From positions 1 through 57,678 of the forward strand of contig DWVG01000017.1 in assembly GCA_019120355.1 (NCBI GenBank): DNA of 57,678 nucleotides. Reading direction: 5' to 3'. Under the pieces are notes generated by a model that had not been told where the DNA came from, did no database searches, and saw nothing but the letters and a program-made list of their open reading frames with translations. The stretch is from Candidatus Ligilactobacillus faecavium. Lineage in GTDB: Bacteria; Bacillota; Bacilli; Lactobacillales; Lactobacillaceae. Below are positions 8,887-52,101 of the stretch, in pieces. The position numbers were made by a program, and so were the translations under genes. Every line of letters starts with the position of its first letter. Position 1 is the stretch's first letter.

Positions 8887-9049
8887 TTTCGTTTTCCCCT
8901 TCAAAATTCTTAAAATGACCATTAATTATTTTATAGAAATCCCCAGTGATTTTCAAGAGCAAAATCGCCTTTTGTTTCCGAAATTGTTCATCAATGTTTG
9001 ACAATTCAAAATAATCGTTCATAATATAATTAACATTTAAATTAACTTT

Positions 9050-9121
9050 TTGCTTATATAATCGCTATGATATGGTTAGCAAGTTTCTACCCGATACCGT
9101 AAAACATCGGACTATAAGCTT
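9050..9121 (+). promoter_or_regulatory. Purine riboswitch aptamer (guanine/hypoxanthine type)
   Basis: P1 GCTTATA (9052-9058)/TATAAGC (9113-9119), P3 CCGAT/ATCGG, conserved TATAATCGC...ATATGG...AAGTTTCTACC...ACCGTAAA...GGACTATAAG with C in the GACTAT position. Confidence 0.93.
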
Positions 9122-9148
9122 TAAGTGTTCGGAATCATTTTAAGTCCG

Positions 9149-30347: not shown

Positions 30348-30389
30348 CCTCTTTCTAGTTTTTTTAAGTGGGATTTTCGCGAACCACTC
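30348..30389 (-). promoter_or_regulatory. preQ1-I riboswitch controlling queT translation
   Basis: Minus strand AGTGGTTCGCGAAAATCCCACTTAAAAAAACTAGAAAGAGG: GTGG/CCAC stem, A-rich AAAAAAACUAG tail next to SD AAAGAGG. Confidence 0.9.
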
Positions 30390-30448
30390 ATGTTTTAGTA
30401 TAAAAAAAATCAGCAATGATGACAAATTCACCATCCCTGATTTTTAGC

Positions 30449-47813: not shown

Positions 47814-48503
47814 ATGACTGAATTTTTTAACGAACCAACCACTGAACAACTCCCGCATTTAAGCTTAAATCATGAATATTTACCGCATCATTTTGTTCAC
47901 GTTCTTGTTTCCCCAACTGCCAAATTTAATCCGTTGATCATTTTCATTGGGGACAGTCAAGAACAGCTTCACATTATTCCACTTTCTCACCTAAGCAGTC
48001 ACGGATTCACGATTGCTCTGCTATCAGCCGACCAATTGAATGGTGATCTGCATCAGCAAGTAAGTGAAATTAAATCTGCGATCCGTTTTTTACTTTTACA
48101 TGCCAACCAATTTTCAATTGATACAAACCGCATTTTCATCTGGGGCGAAGGTCGCGGTGCTGATCTAAGCGGGATTACCATTTTAACCGCCAATGATCCG
48201 GAATGGAATGCGGAAGACCCGCGTGTTCTTCCGCTCCGTTTGCGAGCTGGATTCTTATTTGGCGCATCGGAATATGATAAACTGACCGCAATGATTCCAG
48301 CGCATAAACGCCCGGCATTGTTTGTCTATAACGGAGAATGCGACTCATTTGATGAATCATCCCGGGATCAGTTTATCCATACTTATCGGCTTCAAAATGA
48401 AGCCCAAGATTTTATTTTGAAAAACACGACCAGCGGAACCAGTGCGTTTTACACCCCGTATATGCTGACAATTATTGAAAACCAGCTTCGAAAATATTTA
48501 TAA
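47814..48503 (+). CDS. Alpha/beta-hydrolase-like protein lacking the nucleophile Ser
   Basis: Esterase-like fold signature FIWGEGRGADLSG in place of GxSxG. Confidence 0.65.
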   Translation: MTEFFNEPTTEQLPHLSLNHEYLPHHFVHVLVSPTAKFNPLIIFIGDSQEQLHIIPLSHLSSHGFTIALLSADQLNGDLHQQVSEIKSAIRFLLLHANQFSIDTNRIFIWGEGRGADLSGITILTANDPEWNAEDPRVLPLRLRAGFLFGASEYDKLTAMIPAHKRPALFVYNGECDSFDESSRDQFIHTYRLQNEAQDFILKNTTSGTSAFYTPYMLTIIENQLRKYL

Positions 48504-48526
48504 ATAAAAAATAACTTAAAAAAGGA

Positions 48527-48555
48527 TTGACACCTGATCAAAACCACGTTATCAT
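48527..48555 (+). promoter_or_regulatory. Sigma-A promoter of candidate sRNA
   Basis: TTGACA (48527-48532), 17-bp spacer, TATCAT (48550-48555). Confidence 0.75.
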
Positions 48556-48561
48556 ATAGAC

Positions 48562-48687
48562 ATTGATGAAAGAGCTTTGTGAGCTTCCATCTCCCCCTAG
48601 ATTCGGCTCACGTTAATATGAGTTCTGTTCATCATCACTTACTCCTTTTTTCTCTGCACTATACGATGTATAATGCAGAGTTTTTTT
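48562..48687 (+). ncRNA. Candidate small regulatory RNA (~126 nt) with own promoter and terminator
   Basis: Stem GATGAAAGAGCT/AGTTCTGTTCATC plus GTGAGC/GCTCAC, loop ATCTCCCCCTAGAT, linker CTTACTCCTTTTTT, terminator CTCTGCACTATACGATGTATAATGCAGAG-TTTTTTT. Confidence 0.75.
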
Positions 48688-48762
48688 ATGCCTTCTCGCA
48701 TCCCATGCGGGTTATTTTTTTACTCTTTTTTCACTTCACAAAAAATTCAATAAAAAAATTTA

Positions 48763-48899
48763 AATCGTAATCCTCGTTTTTCACTTTCTAATAAACAAGC
48801 AATTCAATTCAATTTCTAAATCGTAATCCCGATCTAACGGACTTTTGGCTGTTGACACGCCTAGTTTGCCCCTTTATTATCTAAAAAGTAATCATTACT
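48763..48899 (+). promoter_or_regulatory. Zur-box-like operator cluster and promoter of metal ABC operon
   Basis: AATCGTAATCCTCG (48763), AAATCGTAATCCCGAT (48818), palindrome AGTAATCATTACT (48887-48899); TTGACA (48852-48857) - 17 bp - TATTAT (48875-48880). Confidence 0.7.
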
Positions 48900-48922
48900 A
48901 ATTTCATTAAAGGAGCTACTGA

Positions 48923-49813
48923 ATGAAGAAATTTTCAAAATTATTTTTATTAGCTGTCGGCGCAATTTTACTCACGTTTTCTTTAAGTGCTTGCGGAAAG
49001 CAATCGTCCACTAAAAAAGCATCAACTGACAAACTCAATGTCGTTGCAACAACCAATTTTTACGGCAACATTGCTCAGGAAGTTCTCGGCGATCACGGAA
49101 CCGTAACGTCGATCATTAATAGCCCAAACATTGATCCGCATGACTTTACCCCGACAACCGCAACCGCCAAAAAAGTTGCTAAGGCCAATCTTGTGATTGA
49201 AAACGGAGTAGGGTACGATACATGGATCAATAAGCTGCAAGCCCGGAAAATTCTTTCGGTCGGAAAAGTCGTTGGTGCCAAAGATGGTGATAACGAACAT
49301 CTATGGTACAATCCCGATAACATCGAAAAGTATGTTGACGCCCTTGCTGTCCAATACGGTCGGCTTTTGCCTCAAGACGCCGCAGCCTTCAAAAAGAACG
49401 CGGCTGCTTATAAAAAGAAATTAAACGTTCTTAATCAAAAAATGAATCAAATCAAAAACGAAAAGCAAAATGCAAATGTCGCCGTCAGTGAGCCAGTCTT
49501 TAACTATGCCCTTCAAAAGATGGGCTTCAAGGTCACTGACAATCATTTTGCCCTTGCAATCGAAGAAGGATCAGATCCGTCATATACTGATATTCGTGAC
49601 TTGCAAAACAGTATTAAAGAACACAAAATTGCATTTTTCGTTTTAAATAAACAGGATGATAGCAAAATCGTTGATAACATCGCTGACCTTTGCCGCAAAG
49701 AAAACGTTCCGATCTTAGAAGTCACCGAAACAATGCCAAAGGACGGTAACTACATCGAATGGTTCAGCAATGAATTAGATCAACTTGCTAAAATCGTTCA
49801 AGCAAAGAGGTAG
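48923..49813 (+). CDS. Metal (Zn/Mn) ABC transporter substrate-binding lipoprotein
   Basis: Lipobox LSACGKQ, NIDPHDFTPT, NEHLWYNPDN, IEEGSDPSYTDI. Confidence 0.93.
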   Translation: MKKFSKLFLLAVGAILLTFSLSACGKQSSTKKASTDKLNVVATTNFYGNIAQEVLGDHGTVTSIINSPNIDPHDFTPTTATAKKVAKANLVIENGVGYDTWINKLQARKILSVGKVVGAKDGDNEHLWYNPDNIEKYVDALAVQYGRLLPQDAAAFKKNAAAYKKKLNVLNQKMNQIKNEKQNANVAVSEPVFNYALQKMGFKVTDNHFALAIEEGSDPSYTDIRDLQNSIKEHKIAFFVLNKQDDSKIVDNIADLCRKENVPILEVTETMPKDGNYIEWFSNELDQLAKIVQAKR

Positions 49814-49820
49814 TCATCAT

Positions 49821-50483
49821 ATGCAACCAATTTTAGAAGTTGAAAATTTAGATATTAAAGTCCCTGATCGAACGCTTTTCCGGAATCTAAACTTTGCAAT
49901 TCCGCGAAATGAATTAACATGCATTACGGGCGAAAACGGCGTTGGCAAATCAACCTTGATCAAACATTTGATTCAGGATCTGAACCGCAACTCAACGATT
50001 CATGCGCAATTTGCGATTCCGCGCGATAAAGTTCAGTACGTGCCGCAATTGCGCAACATTGACGATGAATATCCGCTTAGTATTCATGACTTTGTTGCCT
50101 TAGGATTTAAGCATCGTATTTTGCCTTGGAATTCAAAAGCCATGAAGCAACGCTTGCGAGAAATTTTGGATGAAACAAAATTGACCCGCATCCAAGCGCG
50201 ACCGCTCGGAAAAGCTTCCGGCGGTGAAAAACAACGCGCTTATCTTGCCCAAGCATTGTGTGCTGATCCGCAGCTTTTAATTTTAGATGAAGCCACTGCG
50301 AACTTGGACCAATCAGCCAAACATTTTCTGTTGCAGCTTTTAAAATCGATCATGCAAAATCATGATCTTACTGTAATTTTTATCACGCACGACCCGGAAT
50401 TGATTGCTGCGTATGCTGATAACGAGCTGCACCTTGAAAATCAAACCGCAACAATGACTCGAATGAAGAAAGGAGAAAATTAA
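49821..50483 (+). CDS. Metal ABC transporter ATP-binding protein (start at 49821)
   Basis: Walker A GENGVGKSTLI, signature ASGGEKQRAYLAQAL, Walker B LLILDEATANLD; SD AGAGG before MQPILEVENL. Confidence 0.94.
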   Translation: MQPILEVENLDIKVPDRTLFRNLNFAIPRNELTCITGENGVGKSTLIKHLIQDLNRNSTIHAQFAIPRDKVQYVPQLRNIDDEYPLSIHDFVALGFKHRILPWNSKAMKQRLREILDETKLTRIQARPLGKASGGEKQRAYLAQALCADPQLLILDEATANLDQSAKHFLLQLLKSIMQNHDLTVIFITHDPELIAAYADNELHLENQTATMTRMKKGEN

Positions 50484-51283
50484 TGTTTAATTATGCTTTT
50501 ATGCAGTATGCATTCATTGCTGGAATATTTATCGCATTAATTTGTGCTGTGATGGGCGTTTTCGTCATCGCTCGGCAAACGTCATTTTTTGCCCATACCC
50601 TTTCTGAAATCGGCTTTTCAGGTGCAAGTTTTGGCGTGTTTGCGGGCATTTCACCGCTTACAGGCATGCTGCTTTTCACCTGTTGCAGTGCGTTATTTAT
50701 CGGATTTTCAGGTGAAAAAGTCAGTCGGCGCGAATCATCGATCAGTGTTTTTTCAGGAATTTTCTTAGGTCTGGGAGTTCTTTTCCTGTCGCTTTCCGAT
50801 AAGCAAGCAAATTACGCAACCAGCATTTTATTTGGAAGCATCGTCGGCATTGACGCTGCTAATCTGCGTGATCTCGTTTGTTTGAGTATCTTCTTATTGA
50901 TTCTAATTTTCTTTACTTTCCGGAAATTAGCCTTCAATTCTTTTGACGCTCAAGGTTCTGAATATAATCAGCGGTATAACAAGTTAATCTCGGTGCTCTT
51001 CCTCTTAATGCTGGCGTTGACCGTCAGCATTACTGCGCAAATTATTGGTGCGTTGCTGATTTTCGTTCTGCTTACGATTCCAGCATCTGCATCTAAGTAC
51101 TACGTTCATTCATTATGGAAAATGATTGGTCTGACCTTTATCTTCGCAATTACCGGAATTTGGCTTGGGTTATATTTAAGTTATTTAACAAACTGGCCCG
51201 TTAGTTTCTTTATCACGGTGATCGAAGCATTGATCTATGGTAGTGCGCTTTTAAAACAAAAAATCAGCAATCATCATAATTAA
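50483..51283 (+). CDS. Metal ABC transporter permease
   Basis: ABC-3 family TM protein: FFAHTLSEIGFSGASFGVFAGISPL. Confidence 0.94.
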   Translation: MFNYAFMQYAFIAGIFIALICAVMGVFVIARQTSFFAHTLSEIGFSGASFGVFAGISPLTGMLLFTCCSALFIGFSGEKVSRRESSISVFSGIFLGLGVLFLSLSDKQANYATSILFGSIVGIDAANLRDLVCLSIFLLILIFFTFRKLAFNSFDAQGSEYNQRYNKLISVLFLLMLALTVSITAQIIGALLIFVLLTIPASASKYYVHSLWKMIGLTFIFAITGIWLGLYLSYLTNWPVSFFITVIEALIYGSALLKQKISNHHN

Positions 51284-51414
51284 TATTTAATTGTTATAAT
51301 TCGATTTATTTTTGAAAAATACCCAATAGTGTTCATTATTAAATGAACATTATTTTTTTATATTCAAAATTTATATGGAATTAAATTTATTAAAGTGCTA
51401 AAATAAATCACAAC

Positions 51415-51502
51415 AGGGGTAGGATATATCTCGTAAATGGCCAATGGAACGGAATGTGAACTTTGGCAGAACCGCAATGGGCGATTTATATCCGCATTCA
51501 CC
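51415..51502 (+). promoter_or_regulatory. Tetrahydrofolate (THF/folT) riboswitch
   Basis: GGGGTAGGATATA ... TATATCCGC closing helix (GGATATA 51422-51428/TATATCC 51487-51493), inner GCCAA/TTGGC, located directly before folT-like gene. Confidence 0.75.
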
Positions 51503-51522
51503 ATAAAATTCATCTGGTGTAT

Positions 51523-51558: not shown

Positions 51559-52101
51559 ATGAAAAAATTATCATGGAAAAGTCCGAAACTTGATGTTCGG
51601 ACCATCACTTTGTCTGCATTGTTAGTTGCAATTCAGATCGTTCTTAACAAAATTTCAATTGGCGATCCTGCCATTTTTAAAATCGGGATTGGTTTTCTCG
51701 GAACGGTATTGATCGGTTACCTTACCGGTCCGTGGCTTGGCGGTGTGATTCTCGTCCTCGTTGATATTATTTCAAATACCGTGTTCAGTTCCGGGGGAGT
51801 CTTTTTCCCAGGATTTACCTTTTCGGCATTCATCAGTGGAATTATTGCCGGGGCATTGCTCTATCACCAGAAGGTTACCTGGCAACGGATCTTTTTATAT
51901 GAATTTATTCAAATCTTAATTTCAAACGTTATTTTTACTACTCTTTGGATTTATATTTTGAGCATGACCTCGCCGCATCATATGGCGCTGACTGCTTTAC
52001 TGGCTGCCCGGATTCCCAAGGAAGTCATTTCATGGCCGATCCAAGCCATCGTTGATTTCTTGATTCTAAAGGCTGTATCAAAAACGCAAATTGCAAAATA
52101 A
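51559..52101 (+). CDS. folT: Folate ECF transporter S component (start at 51559)
   Basis: RTITLSALLVAIQIVLNKISIGDPAIFKIGIGFLGTVLIGYLTGPWLGGVILVLVDIISN. Confidence 0.9.
   Translation: MKKLSWKSPKLDVRTITLSALLVAIQIVLNKISIGDPAIFKIGIGFLGTVLIGYLTGPWLGGVILVLVDIISNTVFSSGGVFFPGFTFSAFISGIIAGALLYHQKVTWQRIFLYEFIQILISNVIFTTLWIYILSMTSPHHMALTALLAARIPKEVISWPIQAIVDFLILKAVSKTQIAK

Follow-up and report, generated by a model that had tools for sequence, protein, structure and literature searches.

Between a hydrolase-like gene and a zinc-type ABC transporter operon, the 57,678-nt stretch of DNA from Candidatus Ligilactobacillus faecavium analyzed in this work (referred to as the window) carries what we consider, with a probability of about three in four, to be an independent gene encoding an anti-Shine-Dalgarno sRNA that acts in trans by base pairing. 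This sRNA would lower translation or message stability of its targets and would represent a lineage-specific copy of a Lactobacillaceae group of such RNAs. Sequence comparison shows that the locus has its own promoter, a hairpin presenting CUCCCCCU at the predicted open tip, a linker ACUUACUCCUUUUUU that is unpaired and invariant, and finally an intrinsic terminator. An earlier, sequence-only reading of this DNA had proposed an autonomous sRNA gene; the comparison of seven species backs it, together with the C-rich loop and the CUCCUUUUUU linker. Regulatory RNAs of lactobacilli are little characterized, and most of those studied in L. casei BL23 are group-specific (PMC8220740). The RNA described here can be defined by comparison alone, including its likely pairing segments, promoter and ends, has related RNAs in several Lactobacillaceae genera and offers a starting point for testing how gut and food lactobacilli control translation.

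Promoter, predicted fold and conservation

The hydrolase-like gene (47814..48503, plus strand; Pfam BD-FAE; synteny kept in relatives) and the operon encoding substrate-binding protein, ATPase and permease of a transporter (48923..51283, plus strand) are separated by 419 bp (48504-48922). The gap had been located correctly by the sequence-only reading, with its size given as 420 bp, and the metal ABC operon noted 3' of the sRNA gene is of the zinc type as judged by Pfam ZnuA, ABC_tran and ABC-3. A sigma-70-type promoter, TTGACA-17-TATCAT, is present on the plus strand at 48527..48555 (-35 box 48527-48532, 17-nt spacer, -10 box 48550-48555), and transcription is predicted to start near A48562, 7 nt past the -10 box. 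The resulting sRNA of about 126 nt (48562..48687, plus strand), for which orthologues occur in six species, has a predicted folding energy of -39.2 kcal/mol as compared to -19.2 +/- 3.0 kcal/mol in 200 dinucleotide shuffles, none of which folded as well (z -6.6). Predicted fold and pairing across seven species agree on a long interrupted hairpin (48564..48634) with the outer stem GATGAAAGAGCTT/GAGTTCTGTTCATC and the inner stem GTGAGC/GCTCAC. Its apical part CCATCTCCCCCTAGATTC (48587..48604), proposed as the first pairing segment, exposes CCCCC in the loop and is followed, beyond the stem, by the unpaired 17-nt linker TCACTTACTCCTTTTTT (48635..48651), the proposed second, anti-Shine-Dalgarno segment. 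The intrinsic terminator (48652..48687) consists of CTCTGCA (48652-48658), TGCAGAG (48674-48680) and seven T (48681-48687). The near-perfect promoter, the ~126-nt unit, the long stem with its inner helix, the C-rich segment displayed in the loop, the CTTACTCCTTTTTT stretch left free just 5' of the terminator and the strong terminator itself had all been read from the sequence before and were all recovered.

Promoter-like patterns are not above chance here (three found versus 3.4 expected from shuffled sequence), terminator-like patterns are likewise no commoner than in shuffled sequence, and the long-stemmed terminator at 48652-48687 was not picked up by a simple terminator scan. Since such patterns occur at chance frequency, pattern matching alone would not suffice to reveal the gene. 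The chance explanation is removed by the finding that the hexamers and the RNA are kept in seven species while spacer and flanks are scrambled.

Six genomes of the Ligilactobacillus aviarius/araffinosus clade, to which the window probably belongs, carry the same element in the same synteny, always flanked by hydrolase-like and adcA-like genes; five of these records are by name Ligilactobacillus aviarius (two), L. araffinosus, Candidatus L. excrementigallinarum and an uncultured Ligilactobacillus. Conservation beyond the strain, without which the sequence-only reading would have fallen, is thus given. When the seven genomes including the window are aligned, none of the 17 linker positions varies (one extra T is inserted in a single genome, G002), and a single one of 18 is variable in the C-rich apical part. 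Variable positions amount to 1/6 in the -35 box and 2/6 in the -10 box, as opposed to 16/17 in the promoter spacer, 5/6 in the discriminator and 31/32 in the 5' flank. In the comparison of loop and stem that had been suggested, loop and linker stand almost still and stems change, nearly always in a pairing-compatible manner, with 98.8% of stem pairs kept versus 28.6-44.4% when the partners are slid against each other. The terminator shows two compensatory changes in the seven species, and in the main hairpin every change affects one partner only and is compatible with pairing, so that covariation support for the latter is modest. As the hydrolase proteins of the clade genomes share as little as 46% identity with that of the window, recent ancestry alone does not explain why loop and linker are nearly identical. 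Judged from this alignment, variation tends to sit at positions where it would do no harm, and conservation tracks function.

Known sRNA families and a proposed wider Lactobacillaceae group

Covariance-model searches of Rfam, at the gathering threshold and at lax E-values, returned only chance-level matches to the window RNA. It is therefore not a known housekeeping RNA and, as the sequence-only reading had conceded, cannot be assigned to a named family. No description of it was found in the open-access papers searched. The resemblance to C-rich base-pairing sRNAs of Firmicutes that had been pointed out is apt. Most csRNAs comprise a hairpin, an unpaired linker complementary to Shine-Dalgarno sequences and a terminator hairpin, are short and intergenic and occur in many sequence types and copies (PMC3091779). 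The window RNA shares this layout, including an unpaired linker of such complementarity between hairpin and terminator. However, the defining trait of csRNAs is a CiaR-driven promoter containing NTTAAG-N5-TTTAAG, and CiaH homologues have been reported in streptococci, not in Lactobacillus (PMC3091779). Direct reading and the seven-species alignment found no such repeat around 10 nt 5' of the -10 box in the window; TTGACA-17-TATCAT, a plain promoter, precedes the window RNA, whose C5 apical loop is a further difference from csRNAs.

In the multicopy RNAs LhrC1-5 of Listeria monocytogenes, the start region of target mRNAs is bound by C-rich motifs that lie exposed in a loop and in a single-stranded stretch; UCCC is found in loop A, the single-stranded stretch and the terminator loop, and the system is LisRK-dependent (PMC4132741). 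An exposed C-rich loop, a single-stranded stretch and membership in a multicopy group are common to both, whereas the window RNA carries UCCC in the apical loop only, has CUCCUU in its linker and lacks a C-run in the terminator loop. Only one of the three LhrC sites, that in the loop, thus has a counterpart, and LhrC gave no sequence match to the window RNA in Rfam. RsaE, FsrA, SprD and RNAIII also direct UCCC-type motifs against Shine-Dalgarno regions (as summarized in PMC4132741). Their use of C-rich motifs is similar, and the window RNA has no Rfam match to any of them. Presumably, all four also differ from it in size and structure. By analogy, the window RNA is best read as working like a csRNA or LhrC while belonging to neither family.

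A covariance model built from the seven orthologues and searched across the genus yielded weak further matches, most of the better ones being sRNAs that follow the same plan although their stems are unrelated; weak DNA matches in distant genomes (L016, L017) lay inside coding genes and were dropped. In other Ligilactobacillus, the shared plan consists of C4-6 runs in hairpin loops, an unpaired ACUCCUUUUUU and an intrinsic terminator. Six further genomes harbor such sRNAs at or near the same locus, either 5' of adcA (G012, G020 and G023, the latter with two in a row; about 600 nt 5' of it in G021) or adjoining the hydrolase gene (G021, G022, G014). Because unrelated sRNAs of one plan in a single gap of several species are improbable by chance, we infer that they are positional orthologues with fast-changing stems, a case of rapid stem turnover in which pairing segments and genomic place persist. 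Paralogues, such as the near-identical set L050-L055, are located elsewhere in the same Ligilactobacillus genomes, and others turn up in a few further genera of the Lactobacillaceae. A related observation concerns the loci L040 and L041, where two species carry related sRNAs beside one and the same MFS transporter gene, again with the place kept and the stems changed.

ACTCCTTTTT is common to the wider group and the linker of the window RNA. The stricter pattern CCCC-N14-44-ACTCCTTTTT-N12-42-TTTTTT occurs in 50 of 401 Lactobacillaceae genomes and 11 of 40 genera, some of these matches being chance or coding ones, as compared to five matches for the reversed pattern. One highly conserved sRNA with C-rich loops is present in 18 sampled genomes of a single genus, g55 (L192, L194-L209); it carries TTCACA-N5-TTCACA repeats and is not in Rfam. 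Genus g50 includes a tandem pair (L219, about 1180-1680 in G233) of two nearly identical related sRNA copies, each copy possessing a separate promoter region and terminator. Related loci of the wider group have no Rfam match either, and no name for the group was found in Rfam or in the literature searched. The proposed Lactobacillaceae C-loop/ACUCCUUUUUU group is characterized by C3-7 in the apical loop, an unpaired ACUCCUUUUU(U), an intrinsic terminator and an intergenic position, all of which the window RNA shows. This membership in a wider lactobacillus group absent from Rfam goes beyond what the sequence-only reading had envisaged.

In many group members, TTCACA-N5-TTCACA repeats end about 8-13 nt 5' of the -10 box, a layout resembling the sites of OmpR-type response regulators such as CiaR. 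They are present at L050, L051, L053, L055, L057, L192, L195 and L203 and were looked for and not found at L042, L044, L045, L047 and L048; being found in many members, not in all, they are not taken as group-defining. Upon direct reading the window copy lacks them and has a full -35 box instead, and its positional orthologues lack them as well. Since it differs in this respect from many paralogues, the window sRNA probably has either a plain housekeeping promoter or a regulator that escaped recognition here. We tentatively put forward, with slightly less than even confidence, that these RNAs are multicopy anti-Shine-Dalgarno sRNAs forming a fast-evolving, undescribed group within the Lactobacillaceae, a counterpart of csRNA and LhrC. 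In this view, an OmpR-type two-component regulator would recognize TTCACA-N5-TTCACA and control many of the copies, and those at the hydrolase/zinc locus would form a separate branch outside that control.

Probable mode of action and candidate targets

The complementarity of loop and unpaired segment to Shine-Dalgarno regions claimed earlier is indeed seen: CUCCCCCU and ACUUACUCCUUUUUU, both exposed in the predicted fold and nearly invariant, are complementary to purine-rich ribosome-binding sites. Composition, exposure and invariance suggest that the window RNA probably pairs with ribosome-binding sites of mRNAs. Both segments would bind the purine-rich Shine-Dalgarno regions of target mRNAs, thereby blocking ribosome binding and lowering translation or message stability; the linker may serve as an anti-Shine-Dalgarno element of broad range, and ribosome sites with G runs may be preferred by virtue of the C5 loop. 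By analogy with LhrC (PMC4132741) and the csRNAs (PMC3091779), the RNA is expected to act in trans on several mRNAs and repress their translation.

AGGGGGA occurs 67 times shortly 5' of ATG in the seven genomes versus 33 times for the reversed pattern, an about twofold excess, although much of the total may be ordinary ribosome sites and C-rich and U-rich segments can pair with many mRNAs by chance. Candidate targets with AAGGGGGA start regions are uvrC and pyrD (named from protein sequence), where the site is kept by all four of the closest species, and a gene for a GT2-type glycosyltransferase, where three keep it. These species are too close for site retention to be evidence of selection. 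A sortase gene that formed the best loop duplex in the window (-20.7 kcal/mol) was rejected, its site being lost in relatives. The linker complement AAAAAGGAGTAA gave, besides the antisense of the sRNA gene itself, only scattered matches and none at a conserved start region; perfect 18-nt matches of this type in G003 and G025 have no start codon behind them.

Alternative readings and the zinc operon

The exposed C/U-rich motifs, repeated across the group, could also be protein sites, in which case the sRNA would sequester an RNA-binding protein instead of pairing with mRNAs. We regard this as unlikely, as no known C-run-binding regulator was identified here and the motifs fit ribosome-site complementarity as in csRNA and LhrC (PMC3091779, PMC4132741). 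It is also quite improbable that the RNA lacks a transcription start of its own and is derived from the hydrolase 3'-UTR or forms a long terminator structure. It does begin only 24 nt 3' of the hydrolase stop codon on the same strand, and direct reading of the sequence revealed no separate terminator in between; however, the two promoter hexamers and the distance between them are kept whereas the surrounding bases vary, and in G020 the related RNA lies beside adcA with no hydrolase gene found nearby. A small peptide of 16 codons (ATGAAAGAGCTTTGTGAG...), whose ATG frame begins near the predicted 5' end, is hardly credible. The predicted fold locks its start region in the outer stem, no space is left for a ribosome site, and the reading was rejected because a 1-nt insertion breaks the frame in three species (G009, G003, G025).

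The sRNA gene is co-directional with adcA and adjoins it in most clade genomes, as would be expected if it acted in cis as leader or attenuator of the downstream zinc operon. This role is very improbable because the RNA ends 5' of the promoter that adcA itself possesses (TTGACA-17-TATTAT, 48852-48880) and of the conserved TAAATCGTAAT boxes that the gap also contains. Several Ligilactobacillus genomes have adcA and TAAATCGTAAT boxes without such an RNA upstream, and in G022 the sRNA lies near the hydrolase gene and is followed by small ORFs, with adcA on another contig. Pairing with the adcA start region is predicted to be weak (linker -11.3, loop -6.7 kcal/mol), and adcA is not favored as a target of the anti-Shine-Dalgarno sRNA either.

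Apart from the sRNA gene, TAAANNGTAAT is repeated three times within 48756-48900, at about -162, -106 and -41 from adcA (start 48923), with a spacing of about 53-68 nt that is preserved in many Ligilactobacillus genomes; the adcA-proximal repeat runs on into the palindrome GTAATCATTAC. This arrangement suggests a multi-site operator for a metal regulator with a full palindrome only at the promoter-proximal site. Elsewhere in the window, riboswitches above Rfam thresholds are a purine riboswitch (9034-9134, plus strand), a PreQ1 riboswitch (30349-30393, minus strand) and a THF riboswitch (51413-51504, plus strand), the last of which lies 5' of a membrane protein gene starting at 51559.
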